This document shows positions 3,973-12,281 of a DNA stretch of 46,018 bases, piece by piece. Source of the stretch: Verrucomicrobiota bacterium. GTDB lineage: Bacteria > Verrucomicrobiota > Verrucomicrobiia > Limisphaerales > JACDHS01. The number at the start of each line of letters is the position of its first letter. The first letter of the stretch is position 1. Under the pieces are notes generated by a model that was not told where the DNA came from, ran no database searches, and was given only the letters and a program-made list of their open reading frames with translations. The stretch covers positions 1-46,018 of the forward strand of contig JACDHS010000023.1 in the NCBI GenBank assembly GCA_013820875.1, read 5' to 3'. The position numbers and the translations under genes are program-made.

Positions 3973-5265
3973 TCAGAAACGTGCCAAATCAATGATCTTA
4001 CTTCCGAACCCAGCGGCGATATCGGGTGAATGGGTAGCAACAATGAACTGACAGCGTCCTGCCAATTTAGTAAGGGATCCGAGAAGTTTTTCTTGCCAAG
4101 TAACATGCAGAGACAACTCAGGTTCGTCTGCCACATATACAATAGGAGAGCGTCCGGACAGCAGAGCCTGTGTCAATAGAATCAGAATTTGTTTTTCCCC
4201 TGATGAAAGATGCCGCCATTCAATAGGACCTCGTTGTTCCCTATTTGGAGTTATTACTATTTCACCTCGATCAGAAACACTGACTTCCTTCTCATTCAAA
4301 AACGAATTAACTATCGATTCAAACTCATGGAGCGAAGCAAATAACTTTCCGCGCTTCGTTTCGAGCTCCTGCGCAAACGTCACTATTGATCGCGTGCGAG
4401 CAATCAACGGCATAATCATGAAGGCCCCAAAATCGATTTTTGAGGGGTCGGCGTTCAGTTTAGCAACCGCCTCTTTTGCGGCCGAAAAATGTTCATTGAT
4501 GCGAATTTCCATTCTCGCATCCACCAGCCCAACATCACGGAAAGCTTTTAAAAGCTGCTGTTTGTCTCCGTCAGACGGAGGGATAAGTGATGCACGGTTG
4601 CGTAACGACCGATCATGTTCTTTGTCAAAAAGAATGTTCTCTAATGCGTGCCGCTGAAATTCTTTCCGCAGTTCCGATAGCTCCGAGTTCAGAGATAACC
4701 TATACTTTTGGAGTTCATCTATTAAACCGCTTAAACATTCATCTACCGATTCAAGCGGCCGTCTGTGTAATGACCTTCTTGCCATTTCCTCTTCGTTCGC
4801 AATCGGTAGTCGCCGACTTACAGGTAACCACACAGCGGGCACTAGACCACAAAGTTGTTCGCGAATTCCCCGTAAATCCATTCGGAATTTTCTTTGCATC
4901 ATAATCTCCGGCGGAACGTCGTCGGGATCATTAACGTTTGAAAAATGTTGAAACGGCAGTAACGGGACTTTGAAGTTCAGGTTGCCTACCGCGATCTTGA
5001 GGTCTTCAGGTGTTTGCGTCACCGAAACGGTCTTTGTCTCATTCCCATCGAATGTCTTCAAACCGATGGTAACTTCAGAAAATTCTGTGCGTGACAGCCT
5101 AGAGAAATTTGCACTGAGGGTGTCGTACAGAATATTGATTAACGTCGTTTTACCGGACGCATTTGGTCCGATGATGACATTTACGTCTTTGCTAAACTTC
5201 AACGGATAATTTTTGTACCCCCAAAGTTTTTTTACGTTGAAGTCGGTGATGTAGTACTTACTCAT
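3973..5265 (-). CDS. ariA: AAA (ABC-type) ATPase, candidate PARIS sensor AriA
   Basis: I place the start at the ATG at 5265, giving 430 residues beginning MSKYYITDFN; a longer open frame upstream is just hsdS read in another frame. Walker A is GPNASGKT (33-40), the ABC signature is LSSGEKQ (353-359), Walker B is VADEPELSLH (378-387), and an H-loop THSPD lies at 411-415. The middle is probably a helical hairpin or coiled coil (residues ~190-330). This is the AAA_15/AAA_21 type seen in OLD, Gabija and PARIS. The partner is a DUF4435 gene, the combination described for PARIS, where the ATPase senses anti-restriction proteins. The start overlaps the hsdS stop by 8 bp, so translation is probably coupled to hsdS. 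Confidence 0.75.
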   Translation of the reverse strand: MSKYYITDFNVKKLWGYKNYPLKFSKDVNVIIGPNASGKTTLINILYDTLSANFSRLSRTEFSEVTIGLKTFDGNETKTVSVTQTPEDLKIAVGNLNFKVPLLPFQHFSNVNDPDDVPPEIMMQRKFRMDLRGIREQLCGLVPAVWLPVSRRLPIANEEEMARRSLHRRPLESVDECLSGLIDELQKYRLSLNSELSELRKEFQRHALENILFDKEHDRSLRNRASLIPPSDGDKQQLLKAFRDVGLVDARMEIRINEHFSAAKEAVAKLNADPSKIDFGAFMIMPLIARTRSIVTFAQELETKRGKLFASLHEFESIVNSFLNEKEVSVSDRGEIVITPNREQRGPIEWRHLSSGEKQILILLTQALLSGRSPIVYVADEPELSLHVTWQEKLLGSLTKLAGRCQFIVATHSPDIAAGFGSKIIDLARF

Positions 5266-6475
5266 AATTTTGAAAATTTGGTCGAATTGTCCCAGAAAGT
5301 AGCTTGGGCAGCAGCGTGTCGCGCAGGGTGGCGAGTGTGCGGGATTGCTCGGCGTTTGCCGCAATCTTGGCGTCGATGGGTTCGAGTTGCTTTGCAACCT
5401 CCTGCTGCGCTTTCGGTGGGGGCAGCTGGATGGCCATTTTTCGCTGGTCTTGAAGGCTGACGTAAGGAGCCATGTCTGTCTGCGTGCTGACTTGAGCGAC
5501 TTGGCGCGTAAAAGCATCGGTGTTCATCCAGCGATAAAGCACGGCAGGATTTAACCGTTGTGTATCCACTGCTCGCCAGAAACAAACTTGTGGTGAATAG
5601 ACGAAGGAGCCCGTCTTTGCTGAAACTCGGGTGATTCGTCCAACTGTTCCCTTAGAAGTGAAGGCAACATCTCCGATCTGTCCGATTTTGTGACCAGCTG
5701 CTGTCACACTACGCGCACTAAGGATTTCCGCACCATCCAGGTCGAAACCATCTAATTTTAGATTGCCAGCGCGCACGAAGGGAATGCCGCCGGAACCAAA
5801 TTCTGAATTCTTCGCCCGATAGCCATCCCCAATGATTAAAGTGCGCTCGTCGATCAAATTTTCAACGAGCTGCTCTTCAATCTCGTTCGCGTACCTCTGA
5901 ATCCACAGGGCGAACAGCGCCCGCGCCATCGCCTCCAGCGTCGCGTTCATCCGCCGATTCAACTCGATCTTGTCGTCCAGCGCCCCAAGCACCGCCGCGA
6001 CGGCTTTCTGCTCGGCAAGGGGTGGGATGCGGAGCGGGAACTTCGGAAATTCAATAAGCGCGAGTCGTTCGACGGTGCTGCCGTGAATCGTGCGCTCGCG
6101 AATCACATCCTGAAACTCCGGGCCGAGGTAATAGTAGAGCAGGAAACGGCTATCCAATCTCTGCGGGTCTGGTCGCATCAGCCCCATGCGTCGGCCAAGG
6201 CAGCAGCGAAGCCCTTCCGGAATAATAGCGGCTTCCCCTAACTTGGTTTCATAGGAGAACACGACATCGCCGGGCCGTGGCGTCACTCGCCGCGTCCACT
6301 TTGCGAAATCTTCTTCCGAGACATGGTCGCTGGAGTCGAGGTCGATGCGTCCCTTGTTCAGGCTGGTGATGCCCAAAAAGACAGGGCCGGAGTCCAGCCT
6401 TGTCGGTGTGGCATGTGGCCCATCGAAGACTTGGCAGACTTCGCCGACAGTTATTTCAGAAAGCCTACCCGACAT
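5258..6475 (-). CDS. hsdS: hsdS, type I specificity subunit
   Basis: The 405-residue protein has two target recognition halves. The first (residues ~1-150) ends in the central conserved region FPLRIPPLAEQKAVAAVLGA followed by KIELNRRMNATLEAMARALF, which forms the spacer helix. The second half (~195-350) ends in the matching distal region IQLPPPKAQQEVAKQLEPID and LRDTLLPKLLSGTI. HsdS sets the DNA sequence recognised by the methylase and the restriction complex. The gene follows a fragment of hsdM 3' sequence, which overlaps its start, and its last codons overlap the ATPase gene. Length is normal. The recognition sequence cannot be predicted from sequence alone. Confidence 0.92.
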   Translation of the reverse strand: MSGRLSEITVGEVCQVFDGPHATPTRLDSGPVFLGITSLNKGRIDLDSSDHVSEEDFAKWTRRVTPRPGDVVFSYETKLGEAAIIPEGLRCCLGRRMGLMRPDPQRLDSRFLLYYYLGPEFQDVIRERTIHGSTVERLALIEFPKFPLRIPPLAEQKAVAAVLGALDDKIELNRRMNATLEAMARALFALWIQRYANEIEEQLVENLIDERTLIIGDGYRAKNSEFGSGGIPFVRAGNLKLDGFDLDGAEILSARSVTAAGHKIGQIGDVAFTSKGTVGRITRVSAKTGSFVYSPQVCFWRAVDTQRLNPAVLYRWMNTDAFTRQVAQVSTQTDMAPYVSLQDQRKMAIQLPPPKAQQEVAKQLEPIDAKIAANAEQSRTLATLRDTLLPKLLSGTIRPNFQNYE

Positions 6476-6627: not shown

Positions 6628-7296
6628 TCAGGAACCATGATGCCCTCCACGTTGTTGGCGGGCGCGTTCGGCGAGCCGGGCGCGGGTCATGCGCTCACGC
6701 AGACCCCCCTCCTTCACGAAATCCTGCTCGAGTCGGCGGAGCTGCTGGTCGAGCAGGTAGTTGGTGAGCTTGATCAGCCCAATCATCACGTTGGCGGCAA
6801 TCGCCGGATCAGAATGCTCGATGCCCTTCCTGAAGGTATCGTAATTGGCGTTGGGCTGGCGGTTGAGTTCACGGAGGCGGCGGGTGTGGGAGTGTTCCGT
6901 GGACCATTCCTCAAGGTCGCGCACGCGCAGGAAGTCGCGAAAATCTTCCAGCAATTCTTCAAGGCTCGCCCGGGCGACGTTGGTCAGCTTGATTTCAGTC
7001 TCCTTAGAGGTTCCGCTGGCCTGGCTGCCTTCGAGGATATTCTGTTTCCCGGAGCGGGCGGCCTGCACCATCTGATCGTGGGTGCGGGAGCGCTTGTCCA
7101 CAAAGCGGTTGCAGAAGCGCACCGTGCCGTCATAGACAATGCGTGATTTCTGAAATGACAACAGATCCTCGTAACCGCCATGAGCCGGAATAAAGCCTTC
7201 AACGGGAAAAAGGGAGGCGCGTGACTCCCGTGATGAAAGAGTCTTTCCGTCCTTTGCAGGTGTCCCTTGTGTCCCTTTAGTCTTTTGGTCAGGCAT
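6628..7296 (-). CDS. Four-helix-bundle protein (S23/IVS-like) of the hsd operon
   Basis: This is a 222-residue, helix-rich protein. The core from about residue 33 to 190 ([79 protein letters not shown] in pieces) matches four-helix-bundle proteins of the 23S rRNA intervening-sequence (S23) type, a longer form of which is found next to hsd genes. No enzymatic motif is visible. The start overlaps the hsdM stop by 8 bp and the gene lies between the true and duplicated hsdM ends. It may bind nucleic acid or help the complex assemble; this is inference. Confidence 0.8.
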
Positions 7297-8899
7297 AACC
7301 CAGTCCCCTCAGGTTTGCTTTGATGGCCTGCTCCAGTTTCGCGGACTCGCAGAATTGCGCGTGCAGTTCCGCGACGAGGCGCGGCATCTTTTCCTCGAAG
7401 GGTTCGCCGTCGTCTTCGACTTCCTCGGCACCGACGTAGCGGCCGGGCGTGAGGACGTGGCTATGTGCCGCAATCTCTGCCGTTGTTGCCGATTTACAGA
7501 AACCCGGAACGTCTGCGTATTTCTGCGGCACACCCTCATCCCCGGCCCTTCTCCCAGTGGGAGAAGGGAGGTCTCCACGCCAGGCATGGTAGGTGGTGAC
7601 GATTTTCTCGAGGTCCGCATCGGTCAACTCGCGATGCACACGGTCGATGAGGGTGCCCATTTTCCGCGCGTCGATGAAAAGAGTTTGGCCTCGGCGGTTG
7701 CGATGGGACGCATTCGCCCTATCCGGCTTTTCGGACTTATTCTTTGCCAAAAACCAGAGGCACACGGGAATCTGCGTGGAATAGAACAGTTGTCCGGGCA
7801 ACGCGACCATGCAGTCCACAAGATCGGCTTCCACAATTGCTTTGCGAATTTCACCTTCGCCGGACTGGTTGGAACTCATGCTGCCATTGGCGAGGACGAA
7901 ACCGGCCATGCCCTGGGGAGCGAGATGATGGATGAAGTGCTGCACCCAGGCGAAGTTGGCGTTGCCTTTGGGAGGGACGCCGAACTGCCAGCGCACGTCG
8001 TCGTCTTTGCGGAACCAGTCACTGTCGTTAAAAGGCGGATTGGCGAGGACGTAGTCGGCGCGGAGATCCGGGTGGAGGTCGCGACGGAAGGTATCGGCGT
8101 TCTCGGGGCCGAAGTCAGCCTCGATGCCGCGCAGAGCGAGATTCATCACCGCAAGGCGTCGCGTGGTGGGGTTACTCTCCTGGCCGTAGATGCTGATATC
8201 GCCAAGCTGGCCGCCGTGGGATTCCACGAATTTTTCGGACTGCACGAACATCCCGCCGGAGCCGCAAGCGGGGTCATAAATGCGGCCCTTGTAGGGAGCA
8301 AGCATCTCGACGAGGAGGCGCACGACGCAGGACGGGGTGTAGAACTGCCCACCGTTCTTGCCCTCGGCGCTGGCGAACTGGGTGAGAAAATATTCGAAGA
8401 CCCGGCCGAGCAGATCCTTCGACCGGCTGGCGACATCGGCGAGCTGGATGGAGCCGATGAGATCAATGAGTTCGCCAAGGCGGTGCTTGTCGAGGTCGGC
8501 GCGGCCGTAGTTTTTGTTGAGCGCGCCCTTGAGGCGGGGATTGTCGCGTTCGAGGGCGACCATGGCGTCATCCACGTCCTTGCCGATGCTCGGGAGTTTG
8601 GCGTTGGCCTGGAGTTGTGCCCACCGGGCTTCCTTCGGCACCCAGAAGACATTGGCAGCGAGGTATTCGTCCTTGTCCTCGGGATTCGCGCCGGCGAAGT
8701 CGCCTTTGCCCGCGACGAGCCTGGCGTGGTGCTCGTCAAAAGTATCGGAAATGTATTTGAGAAAGATGAGGCCGAGGACGACGTGCTTGTATTCCGCCGC
8801 GTCCATGTTGTTGCGGAGTTTGTCGGCGGCGAGCCAAAGCTTGGCTTCAAAGCCGAGGTTCGCGGAAGAATCGGAATTGCTAGATTTCGTACGTGCCAT
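7289..8899 (-). CDS. hsdM: hsdM, type I modification methyltransferase
   Basis: HsdM is the N6-adenine methyltransferase subunit that, with HsdS, protects host DNA. This 536-residue copy has the N-terminal HsdM helical domain (residues ~15-150, with [20 protein letters not shown]), the SAM-binding motif DPACGSGG (209-216), catalytic NPPF (287-290) and [17 protein letters not shown] downstream. Residues 443-456 ([15 protein letters not shown]) are the translation of a REP palindrome inserted in frame between the catalytic core and the C-terminal helices, probably in a surface loop. The gene is otherwise complete. It is the first gene of the minus-strand hsd operon; the 130 bp upstream hold no clear Shine-Dalgarno sequence at normal spacing. 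Confidence 0.93.
7530..7576. repeat. REP-like palindrome in hsdM
   Basis: CCCTTCTCCCAGTGGGAGAAGGG preceded by CTCATCCCCGG. It is the same variant as the copy at about 585-613 in hsdR, and both are read as PGRRVGDEG-type peptides. It keeps the hsdM frame. Confidence 0.8.
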
Positions 8900-9036: not shown

Positions 9037-9330
9037 CCCCTACAACCCCTTCCTCTTCAAATTCCCCTGCATCTTCTGGAGGGTGCAGGCGTGTCTTTCC
9101 ACCAACGCGGGAGGTTCGACGGGGTAGGCCTCGCCTTCGAAGGTCATCAGCCAGGGATGCACTTCCACGAGGCTGGTTAGTTTTTGGTGCAGTTGCACGT
9201 CGCCGTTCGGGAGTTCCACCAGTTGCTGTTGACCGGGCCAACGCTTTTCGCGGACGCGATGGGCCACACATTTGTTGAAGTGGATGATGATGTCGAATTC
9301 GCCGTCGCCCGAGAAGACGTTGAAACTGCT
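9037..9330 (-). pseudogene. Partial copy of the WYL regulator 3' end
   Basis: About 290 bp repeat the end of the WYL gene at 10471-10762 with few changes. Both encode FNVFSGDGE, NKCVAHRVREKRWPGQQQL, then LTSLVEVHPWLMTFEGEAYP and a QGNLK end. The copy starts abruptly at the palindrome pair at 9339, has no HTH or WYL core, and ends at nearly the same base as the full gene. Together with the full copy it brackets the RAYT transposase gene, so it marks a duplication linked to that insertion. Confidence 0.88.
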
Positions 9331-9338
9331 CAAGAAGC

Positions 9339-9517
9339 GTAGTGGCAGCTTTTCCAAGCTGCCAGTTCACGGTGCTTTCCAGCACCGTTTTCGGGGGACG
9401 AGAGGCAAACGCAGGTCGGTCTATTTGTTCTTTCTCACTTCAGTGCTGTTCGGCATCCACAGGAACACGGGACTGGAAAGTCCCGTGAACTGGCAGCTTG
9501 GAAAAGCTGCCACTACA
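9339..9517. repeat. Paired REP/BIME-like hairpins, left of the RAYT gene
   Basis: Four short hairpins are arranged as two inverted pairs: TGGCAGCTT-AAGCTGCCA and CGGTGCT-AGCACCG at 9341-9390, then CGGGACT-AGTCCCG and TGGCAGCTT-AAGCTGCCA at 9464-9514. The spacer of ~75 bp is not coding. Such inverted hairpin pairs beside a RAYT gene are what the transposase is expected to recognise. Confidence 0.85.
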
Positions 9518-9518
9518 T

Positions 9519-10157
9519 TCATCTGCGGCGGGATAAACTGCTCCATGGCCAATCTTCAGGACGTTCACACAAACGGGCGTTCACCGGATTCATGGTGGTG
9601 TAATTGCAGCAGCGATATAGATCTTCATCGTTGCGGATCAGGTGATTGTAAAATTCCTTTTGCCAAAACACCCCTCTACGTTTCAAAAGTTTGTTCGCCT
9701 CACGGGCAACGAATCCTTTCCAGCTTTGCAGTATCTTGCTCAACGTCCAGCCCGGCAGAGGTCGAAGCACGGCGTGAACATGGTTGGGCATCACAACCCA
9801 TGCGAGCAGATCAAAGCGTTGGCCGGCATGAAAACAAAGAGCTCCGGCCATCAATTTTGCGATCTCCGGTTTTCTTAACCAACAATTGCCGTGACCTGCG
9901 TCGAGGTATTGGTCAACGCGAGTTGTATACCAGTCATAAAGATCCTGTTGTTCCTGCCAGGTGAGAGGGCGTTTGGCGGCGAGTGCGTGAGCCATGATCA
10001 ATTCTCGCTCCTGTTTGAAACGGAGAATGACTTCGCGAGGCAGAGTTCCAGCCAACCGAAACGTCACGAAGTAAGAGCCCCCTTCCCGCTTAAGGTGCGG
10101 AAGATGATCCCGATGATGAAACCCTGCAATGAGATGTGACTGATCGCGTTCTGCCAT
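9519..10157 (-). CDS. REP-associated tyrosine transposase (RAYT, Y1 family)
   Basis: This 212-residue protein is a single-domain HUH (Y1) nuclease of the RAYT type. It shows YFVTFRLAGTLP near the N terminus, the metal-binding HUH motif in VVMPNHVHAVLRPLPG (HVH near residue 128), then WKGFVAREANKLL and FWQKEFYNHLIRNDEDL, which holds candidate catalytic tyrosines, and the family end NPVNARL with PEDWPWSS. RAYTs cut and join single-stranded REP hairpins. The gene is intact and is bracketed by two hairpin pairs with the same palindromes (9339-9517 and 10217-10462), so it may still be active. It lies between the WYL gene and hsdM and splits what was probably one regulatory unit. Confidence 0.92.
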   Translation of the reverse strand: MAERDQSHLIAGFHHRDHLPHLKREGGSYFVTFRLAGTLPREVILRFKQERELIMAHALAAKRPLTWQEQQDLYDWYTTRVDQYLDAGHGNCWLRKPEIAKLMAGALCFHAGQRFDLLAWVVMPNHVHAVLRPLPGWTLSKILQSWKGFVAREANKLLKRRGVFWQKEFYNHLIRNDEDLYRCCNYTTMNPVNARLCERPEDWPWSSLSRRR

Positions 10158-10216
10158 GAGCCGCTTTTTGTTTCAATATCCAGGAACCCCGTCAATGACA
10201 GATGCGCTTTTTAATG

Positions 10217-10462
10217 TAGTGGCAGCTTCAACCGCAAAGCGGTTCGTCTCGTTTATAGTTCTGATTTCCAAGCTGCCAGTTCACGGTGCTTTCCAGCACC
10301 GTTTCCGGAAACGCGTCAAACAACCCGACCCCATGCGCAGGGCAGATGATATGAAGTTTTTTTATCCTCAATAACATCCTCCAATTTGCGTCTCCCAACC
10401 AACCGGAACACGGGACTGGAAAGTCCCGTGAACTGGCAGGCTGGAAAGCCTGCCACTACATT
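10217..10462. repeat. Paired REP/BIME-like hairpins, right of the RAYT gene
   Basis: This is the second copy of the hairpin set flanking the transposase. The first palindrome (GTGGCAGCTT ... AAGCTGCCA) is interrupted by about 40 bp that include a small hairpin AACCGCAAAGCGGTT. CGGTGCT-AGCACCG follows at ~10280. The inverted pair CGGGACT-AGTCCCG and TGGCAGGCT-AGCCTGCCA lies at 10412-10460. Order and orientation match the left set. Confidence 0.85.
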
Positions 10463-10472
10463 CGGGCTGCCC

Positions 10473-11525
10473 CTACAACCTCTTCCCTTTCAAATTCCCC
10501 TGCATTTTCTGGAGGGTGCAGGCGTGTCTTTCCACCAACGCGGGGGGTTCGACGGGGTAGGCCTCGCCTTCGAAGGTCATCAGCCAGGGATGCACTTCCA
10601 CGAGGCTCGTTAGTTTCTGGTGCAGTTGCACGTCGCCGTTCGGGAGTTCCACCAGTTGCTGTTGACCGGGCCAGCGCTTTTCGCGGACGCGATGGGCCAC
10701 ACATTTGTTGAAATGGATGATGATGTTGTATTCGCCGTCGCCCGAGAAGACGTTGAAACTGCCTTTCAAAAATTCGGCCACACTGAATTTCGGGCGCACG
10801 AACGTTTTGCCGGTTCTTCTGCCTTCGTGGGCTCGTCTCGGATAGAAGGTGATGACTTTTCCCCGGTTGTCATCATCGGCGAAGAGATACCAACCGGTGG
10901 GCAAGGCCGAGAAGGAATAGGGTCGAATAACCCGCCAGGCAGGCGCTTTCCCGGGCGTTTCATAGAAAATTTCGAGTTCCCAACGATTCTTGCAGGCATT
11001 CACGAACAGCTCGTGGATCTCCGGTCTATCCAGGGATTGGGTGGCATTATGGAATGTGACCGTTTCCTCCAGTTCTGCGAGGTTGACGACAATTTCATCG
11101 GGCAGGAGGGCCGACAATTTCTTCAGCGAATCGCGCAATCGCCGTGCGATGACTCCACCGTCGTTGGATGAAGTCAACGCCTTGTGCGCCACGACCCAGG
11201 CGAACAGTTCTCCTTCCGTGAGACTCAATTCCGAGACATCGCCGATCGGCTCGGAATAGAAGTAGCCGTTCTTCAACGCATCCCATTCGAGCGGCAATTT
11301 GTGATAGGTGCGCAGGTGCCTGATGGCCCGGTATACGGCATCGGTGCTGCCGCCGAATTTAGCGATGAGCTTTTGGGCGTTGGGATAGGATCCGGATTGA
11401 ATTTCCCAATGGATCCAAAGAGCAAGGCCGTGCTTGCGTCGCTGGGTAGCGGGCTTGGGATCTTTTTTGGATATCTTCGCCGACTTGCCTGTTGTTTTTT
11501 TGACCTTTTTCCCTGTGGGTTTCAT
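10473..11525 (-). CDS. WYL-domain transcriptional regulator of the defence operon
   Basis: I use the ATG at 11525, giving 350 residues that begin with a lysine-rich tail; an in-frame TTG at 11558 is possible. The N-terminal winged helix lies at about residues 30-85 (AQKLIAKFGGSTDAVYRAIR). A helical linker follows, then the WYL region (~185-250; ALPTGWYLFADDDNRGKVIT carries the Y/L-type core) and a C-terminal WCX-like extension. Regulators of this class (BrxR, CapW) repress phage-defence operons and are relieved by a ligand or DNA damage. The gene lies upstream of hsdM on the same strand, with a 41-42 bp repeat array just before its start that could hold operators. Repression of the hsd/PARIS operon is inference. 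Confidence 0.82.
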   Translation of the reverse strand: MKPTGKKVKKTTGKSAKISKKDPKPATQRRKHGLALWIHWEIQSGSYPNAQKLIAKFGGSTDAVYRAIRHLRTYHKLPLEWDALKNGYFYSEPIGDVSELSLTEGELFAWVVAHKALTSSNDGGVIARRLRDSLKKLSALLPDEIVVNLAELEETVTFHNATQSLDRPEIHELFVNACKNRWELEIFYETPGKAPAWRVIRPYSFSALPTGWYLFADDDNRGKVITFYPRRAHEGRRTGKTFVRPKFSVAEFLKGSFNVFSGDGEYNIIIHFNKCVAHRVREKRWPGQQQLVELPNGDVQLHQKLTSLVEVHPWLMTFEGEAYPVEPPALVERHACTLQKMQGNLKGKRL

Positions 11526-11623
11526 AAGTGGGCCGGAGAATAGTTTCCATTGACTCAAAAGAAACTTTTTTCGCGTGGTTTGTATGCCTCGCGGACAATT
11601 CTTTTCACCGGGGGGACAGTCAT

Positions 11624-11915
11624 CCCGGTTGGCCGCTGAAAAAGACTTTTTTGGAGGCCGTCGGGTCCTGACATTGCGTAAAAAAGACTTTTTTGACCAA
11701 TGTCAGGACTGACTTTGGCCGGAAAAGACTTTTTTGGCCGTTGTCAGTCCTGACTTTGACCAAAAAAGTCCGTTTCGGTGGGCAGTCGGTCCTGACTTTG
11801 GTCAAAAAAGAGTTTTTCGAGCGTTGTCAGTCCTGACTTTGGCCAAAAAAGTCCGTTTCGATGGCCAGACGGTCCTGACTTTGGCCAAAAAAGTCTTTTT
11901 TGAGGGCCGTCTTGA
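11624..11915. repeat. 41-42 bp period repeat array upstream of the WYL gene
   Basis: Six units begin at about 11665, 11706, 11747, 11789, 11830 and 11872, with a partial unit before them. Each has GTCCTGACTTTGGCC, then AAAAAAGTC and a T-rich stretch, followed by a GGCC-containing part that varies more. The core GACTTTGGCCAAAAAAGTC is an imperfect palindrome. Spacing is 41, 41, 42, 41, 42 bp, close to four helical turns. There are no unique spacers, so it is not a CRISPR array. It ends about 100 bp from the WYL start. Confidence 0.85.
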
Positions 11916-11960: not shown

Positions 11961-12281
11961 TAAGTTGAGCTATTTTCGGTGGAATAGAAAGAGTGAATGT
12001 TGTGTCTCTGGCAGATCTGAGGCTTGATTGGTGGGCGGAAGTTTTCTCCCTCACCCTAACCCTCTCCCGCTGGGAGAGGGAACTCGCTTTCGGCTTTCTT
12101 GGATGTTTTCCGCAGAAACCCGAGGTGATTGGCAGTCTTCGGCTTCTAAGAAGACGGGAGGCGTTTCTCCCTCTCCCAGCGGGAGAGGGCGGGGTGAGGG
12201 AGAATCTCAAGGCTTTTATAAAGGTGAATTCCACCGAAAACAGCGAGGAACCCAAGTTGAGCTATTTTCAGTGGAATAGCC
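11961..12281. repeat. REP pair flanked by short direct repeats
   Basis: AGTTGAGCTATTTTC-GTGGAATAG occurs at about 11963-11988 and again at 12254-12280 as direct repeats with one change. An inverted partial copy, ATTCCACCGAAAACAGC, lies at ~12228. Between them are two REP palindromes in opposite orientation, at 12046-12085 (CCCTCTCCCGCTGGGAGAGGG) and 12165-12205, each with its TCACCC or GGGTGAGGG tail pointing outward. No convincing gene is present. The layout resembles a miniature element with its own flanking repeats. Confidence 0.7.

Follow-up and report, generated by a model that had tools for sequence, protein, structure and literature searches.

A RAYT unit behind a duplicated WYL gene end in a Verrucomicrobiota genome and the recurrence of bracketing gene-end repeats at RAYT loci of the order

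The window analysed here, a stretch of 46,018 nucleotides from a Verrucomicrobiota genome, carries a REP-associated tyrosine transposase (RAYT) gene within a REP pair-RAYT-REP pair unit that is added right behind the stop codon of an intact WYL-domain regulator gene (Table 1). Beyond the unit the end of the WYL gene appears a second time, followed by hsdM. The initial annotation had described a complete RAYT between inverted REP pairs, bracketed by copies of the WYL end of about 290 bp, in agreement with the ungapped direct repeat of 293 nt obtained with blastn (96% identity, E ~1e-138); the spacing of about 140 bp that it had given between the left copy and hsdM was measured as 140 bp from stop codon to hsdM start. 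This left copy, the stub, retains 96 codons without stop or frameshift, ends a few nucleotides beyond its stop codon and lacks the upstream part of the gene. The intact regulator has 361 residues when counted from a TTG, the first ATG being located at about 11525.

Table 1. Features of the WYL-RAYT-hsdM region of the window
Feature	Position	Strand	Basis
hsdM, type I restriction-modification methyltransferase, downstream of stub	7289..8899	-	Pfam N6_Mtase, HsdM_N
Stub: partial WYL gene 3' end, 96 codons plus stop	9037..9329	-	96% to 10470-10762; open frame
Insert, 1140 nt, REP head to REP head	9330..10469	.	edges set by repeat
Left inverted REP pair (BIME), GTAG...CTAC heads outward	9339..9516	.	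54-nt inverted arms, 91% complementary
RAYT, 212 aa, intact	9519..10157	-	ORF and profile match
Right inverted REP pair (BIME), direct repeat of left pair	10216..10459	.	repeat comparison
Second REP-like family member, 39 nt, in loop of one right-hand REP	10229..10267	.	genome-wide matches
WYL gene 3' end, second repeat copy	10470..10762	-	repeat match
WYL/WCX-domain regulator gene, intact	10473..11558	-	ORF and domain match

The transposase scores 101.9 bits with the NCBIfam profile REP_Tyr_transpos (NF047646), above the cut-off of 80, and matches Y1_Tnp (PF01797), with the HVH in MPNHVHAV and the tyrosine in WQKEFYNH recognized by eye. These traits, together with two flanking inverted GTAG REPs and further REPs in the genome, identify it as a RAYT. 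Outward GTAG heads with 9-bp stems are separated from the repeat edges by 9 and 10 nt. The gene is present in a single copy, the next RAYT of the genome being 43% identical, and REPs of its type are dispersed (tens of genome-wide matches, 11 of them exact to the pattern); the second REP-like family has around 25 copies genome-wide, matching query positions 1193-1231. Scanning 27 REP-hit loci of the same genome (±1.5 kb; some overlap, and two are views of the window itself) revealed no large bracketing repeat outside the window, implying that REPs alone are not the cause of the duplication.

The stub and the intact gene end in the window are separated by 7 synonymous and 4 non-synonymous differences, a split with p 0.003 against fully neutral change and about 0.08, by our own estimate, against decay with one copy neutral. 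Elsewhere in this genome, on contig C70 (L066 5171-6503), decayed WYL-end pieces lie on both sides of a DUF6036 nucleotidyltransferase gene, with no REPs, at 88-90% DNA identity and in permuted order; using them as outgroup, about three changes fall on the stub and four on the gene, as counted from the alignment. The initial annotation had considered that the left copy could prove to be an older, separate gene fragment found without RAYT in relatives. This was borne out by half, given that the C70 pair stands without REP or RAYT in the genome itself. The same pair, as well as 9 nt beside the left REP that align to WYL if a gap of 3 nt is allowed, so that the match reaches residue 263, would suit an origin of the stub in an older tandem WYL paralog that the RAYT unit cut short. 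We regard this as very improbable, since it leaves unexplained both the thrS, glyA and hsdM cases described below and a stub that ends at its stop beside the native downstream gene. In relatives, hsdM was found within 1.5 kb of WYL at none of the 30 best WYL loci; the genomes searched returned no genome of the same genus for the window, and a search of the WYL protein against the genome contigs found no relative.

RAYT loci were surveyed across one order, represented mostly by draft assemblies, in which the usual layout is BIME-RAYT-BIME. An automatic filter for non-palindromic bracketing repeats selected 17 of the 91 loci with usable flanks, and direct repeats of host, non-REP sequence were retained at ten of the 91 after a curation that was our own and was made with the cases in view, not blind. 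Besides the window (WYL end, 293 bp), these ten loci comprise thrS ends at L148 (110 bp), L141 (82 bp), L219 (120 bp) and L226, a glyA end at L215 (43 bp, 43/43 identical), the start of hsdM at L127 (84 bp), the start of a GH57 gene at L150 (38 bp, 38/38 identical), the start of a DUF4256 gene with upstream sequence at L232 (around 250 bp) and an intergenic repeat at L124 (36 bp, 94%). Repeats at L204, L205, L155, L138 and L172 were discarded, being BIME arrays. In control intervals of equal size, bracketing repeats were seen in 5 of 140 cases, or 1 of 140 once tandem paralogs were removed (Fisher p for the ten RAYT loci 0.03 and 0.0005, respectively). The control matches set aside as tandem paralogs were those at L199, L154, L166 and L138, the last by inspection and the other three by length and identity only. 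The remaining match, at L196 (G224), is a gene-start duplication (5698-5777 and 7824-7902, 80 bp, 90%) that encloses a long ORF and no RAYT. The bracketed loci are scattered across the RAYT tree, indicating that the arrangement arose several times, and the RAYTs adjacent to thrS form two separate groups, each covering several families. A left-versus-right tblastx comparison was dominated by REP and low-complexity noise.

Considering a REP head as GTAG, GGAG or GTGG followed by a hairpin, 12 of the 18 edges of nine inserts are located within 15 nt of an outward head, compared with 2% of random nearby points, and this coincidence implies that the inserts are discrete REP-headed units. The outer end of the stub lies at, or a few nucleotides from, the stop codon in the window, at three thrS loci and at glyA, and the GH57 stub ends at the start codon; the inner end varies between loci, with thrS stubs starting at query residues 5-7, 12, 17 and 25-26. 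Pooling four loci, stubs and intact ends differ by 41 synonymous and 31 non-synonymous changes (p 2e-9 against full neutrality and about 9e-4 against one-copy-neutral decay; the codon counts of L141 were left out of the analysis). REPs are often placed no more than 20 bp from the 3' ends of genes (PMC3733652), and this would account for the near edge of an insert under import as well as under transposition.

In the window, L141, L148 and L215, outward REP heads are found at both edges, as in a transposition unit. In a transposition-like insertion of the REP-RAYT-REP unit, RAYT would cut near the outer REPs, the unit would join a single-stranded target behind the stop codon, and gap repair would copy 40-300 bp to both sides, producing a long target duplication of variable length; TnpA-REP has been reported to cleave within a few nucleotides of REPs, between C and T (PMC8266576). 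The clearest case is L215, on contig C35 of genome G228, where the glyA-end repeats around the RAYT unit are identical. In the congeners G219 and G239 both flanks of this locus are joined, with one copy of the repeat and without the RAYT unit, and the 43-bp sequence there differs from both G228 copies. The empty site and the identical repeats show that the whole RAYT unit inserted along with a target duplication at L215 at least, which is a locus of a relative and not the window. The identical repeats at L150 and the 94% repeats at L124 also speak for such an insertion. At L209, L196 and L232 the flanks are non-syntenic and not adjacent in congeners of the same genera, and a chimeric query for L150, L124 and L148 matched one flank only, revealing in addition an array of thrS stubs in G112. 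Transposition with a long target duplication is a real possibility, which we nevertheless hold to be on the doubtful side, considering that most RAYT loci have no duplication and that a search for short direct repeats beside the outermost REP heads was mostly negative. Moreover, of the stubs at L141 the near one, which is presumably newer, has diverged further than the far one, and the family has been reported without larger target duplications (PMC2817692). The initial annotation was right in calling such a duplication unusual for a RAYT.

A further difficulty for transposition is that genes other than RAYT are bracketed in the same manner. In G112 (L304 1-4833, contig C65), thrS precedes bestrophin-like, Cys/Met PLP and YdjM genes, and a thrS 3'-end stub comes after each of the three. 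The bestrophin-like and Cys/Met PLP genes of this array use as stop codon a TGA inside the thrS stub. In G099, a DUF6036 gene comes after the third thrS end, and beyond the RAYT unit of G228 more glyA stubs bracket a PIN-domain (PIN/VapC-like) gene and a sigma-factor gene. Together with the C70 pair, such cargo implies that the process that leaves stubs is wider than RAYT and, along with the synonymous differences in the older stub pairs, argues against a target duplication made by RAYT only. The recurrence at many gene ends, the position of the insert edges at REP heads and the bracketing of non-RAYT genes had all escaped the initial annotation, whose two options, a gene end carried in with the element or entry by copying of the target, were the right ones to choose between.

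The evidence from the window alone does not decide between these models. Taking all loci together, we favour, with a probability of roughly one half, an import that is anchored within the host gene and illegitimately joined at a REP hairpin over transposition with a long target duplication. Donor DNA bearing a WYL end followed by the RAYT unit would arrive, and homologous recombination within the WYL gene would anchor one side; on the other, the outer REP hairpin would be joined illegitimately to a point inside the 3' end of the recipient WYL gene. The WYL gene would thus stay whole, and the last 293 bp of the recipient copy would be stranded beyond the unit as a stub, with the native hsdM flank attached. 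Import from a donor, the direction of replacement and the break and join at a REP hairpin are what we infer from the arrangement. For strings of displaced gene 3' ends at Vibrio T6SS loci, the published model invokes homology-facilitated illegitimate recombination (PMC5361080), and the window agrees with the layout of the product of such recombination, namely an anchor end, a non-homologous end and the old gene end behind.

In favour of anchored import we count the gene-end repeats at 10 of 91 RAYT loci against 1 of 140 controls, the stub outer ends at stop or start codons with variable inner ends, a bracketing that is not specific to RAYT, and the coincidence of insert edges with REP heads (within 15 nt for 12 of 18). 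The mainly synonymous differences between stubs and genes would fit alleles that had diverged before the event, and the two multi-family groups of thrS-adjacent RAYTs are as expected if the locus spreads through recombination in thrS. Counted against it are the fully identical repeats of L215 and L150, for which duplication in situ is simpler, and the REP heads at both edges, given that an illegitimate join would be expected anywhere unless directed by the hairpin. The synonymous bias in the window is weak against one-copy-neutral decay, and the donor allele was not found.

In enteric bacteria, REPs are known where the copies of tandem duplications join. A history in two steps would involve such a duplication: the RAYT unit would have settled behind the WYL stop without any duplication, and a later REP-mediated tandem duplication of gene end plus unit would have been followed by loss of one unit. 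A 425-bp direct repeat at L126 (3864-5107, G052), covering the 3' half of a RAYT plus a BIME and placing a truncated RAYT ahead of the intact one, has both copies ending at a REP head and points to duplications of this kind. We consider the two-step history improbable, as it requires an extra precise loss at every locus and its intermediate, gene end-unit-gene end-unit, was found at 0 of 91 loci.

The unit shares with described RAYT/REPtron systems a relative of the Y1/HUH transposases, the single copy, the inverted GTAG REPs arranged as BIMEs and the dispersed REPs (Nunvar 2010, PMC2817692; Corneloup 2021, PMC8266576). For those systems, mobility of tnpA-REP genes is described as without evidence (PMC8266576), whereas here units are bracketed by target duplications, one of them with empty sites in congeners. 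IS200/IS605 elements have in common the Y1 transposase fold and palindromic ends, but they insert without larger target duplications, whereas some units here are bracketed by repeats of 36-293 bp; the window unit has a 293-bp repeat and is found as one copy instead of multiple mobile copies. The resemblance to the arrays of displaced 3' ends at T6SS effector and Rhs loci (PMC5361080) is that an incoming module, anchored in a conserved gene, would leave the old 3' end downstream, and that arrays would be built by repeated events; the host genes here instead have housekeeping or regulatory roles (thrS, glyA, WYL), and RAYT units with REP-headed edges are part of the cargo. In integron cassette arrays and islands at gene 3' ends, cargo likewise piles up at a fixed site with site-like repeats in between; the present cases differ in their many target genes and in repeats of 36-293 bp with no common core. 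Instead of the fixed attachment core of a site-specific cassette, both the genes and the stub starts differ, and no integrase was found among the cargo genes examined.

With the empty site of L215, its perfect 43-bp duplication, the REP-headed edges and the independent recurrence across the RAYT tree, it becomes possible to test directly whether whole RAYT units move. The stub arrays of thrS and glyA also suggest that there is a general way of adding single genes downstream of conserved ones, leaving the latter unbroken. More speculatively, the 3' ends of thrS, glyA and WYL may be recurrent entry sites in the order, where arrays of single-gene cassettes (RAYT units, toxin-antitoxin and metabolic genes), each followed by a stub, would be built by an undescribed process with REP heads as possible element ends.

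Other repeats and genes lie around the locus. Just upstream of the WYL gene (window 11639-11903), palindromic units of around 41 bp with long inverted arms, AAAAAAGTC...GACTTTTTT with GTCCTGAC, form an array. A CTTCTCCCAGTGGGAGAAGG palindrome stands in frame within hsdM (window 7530-7570) and looks like a repeat inserted into coding sequence; similar palindromes are intergenic, near 12060 and 12170. The type I restriction locus also contains an AAA_21 ATPase gene (window 3973-5517) with weak likeness to the PtuA retron effector ATPase.
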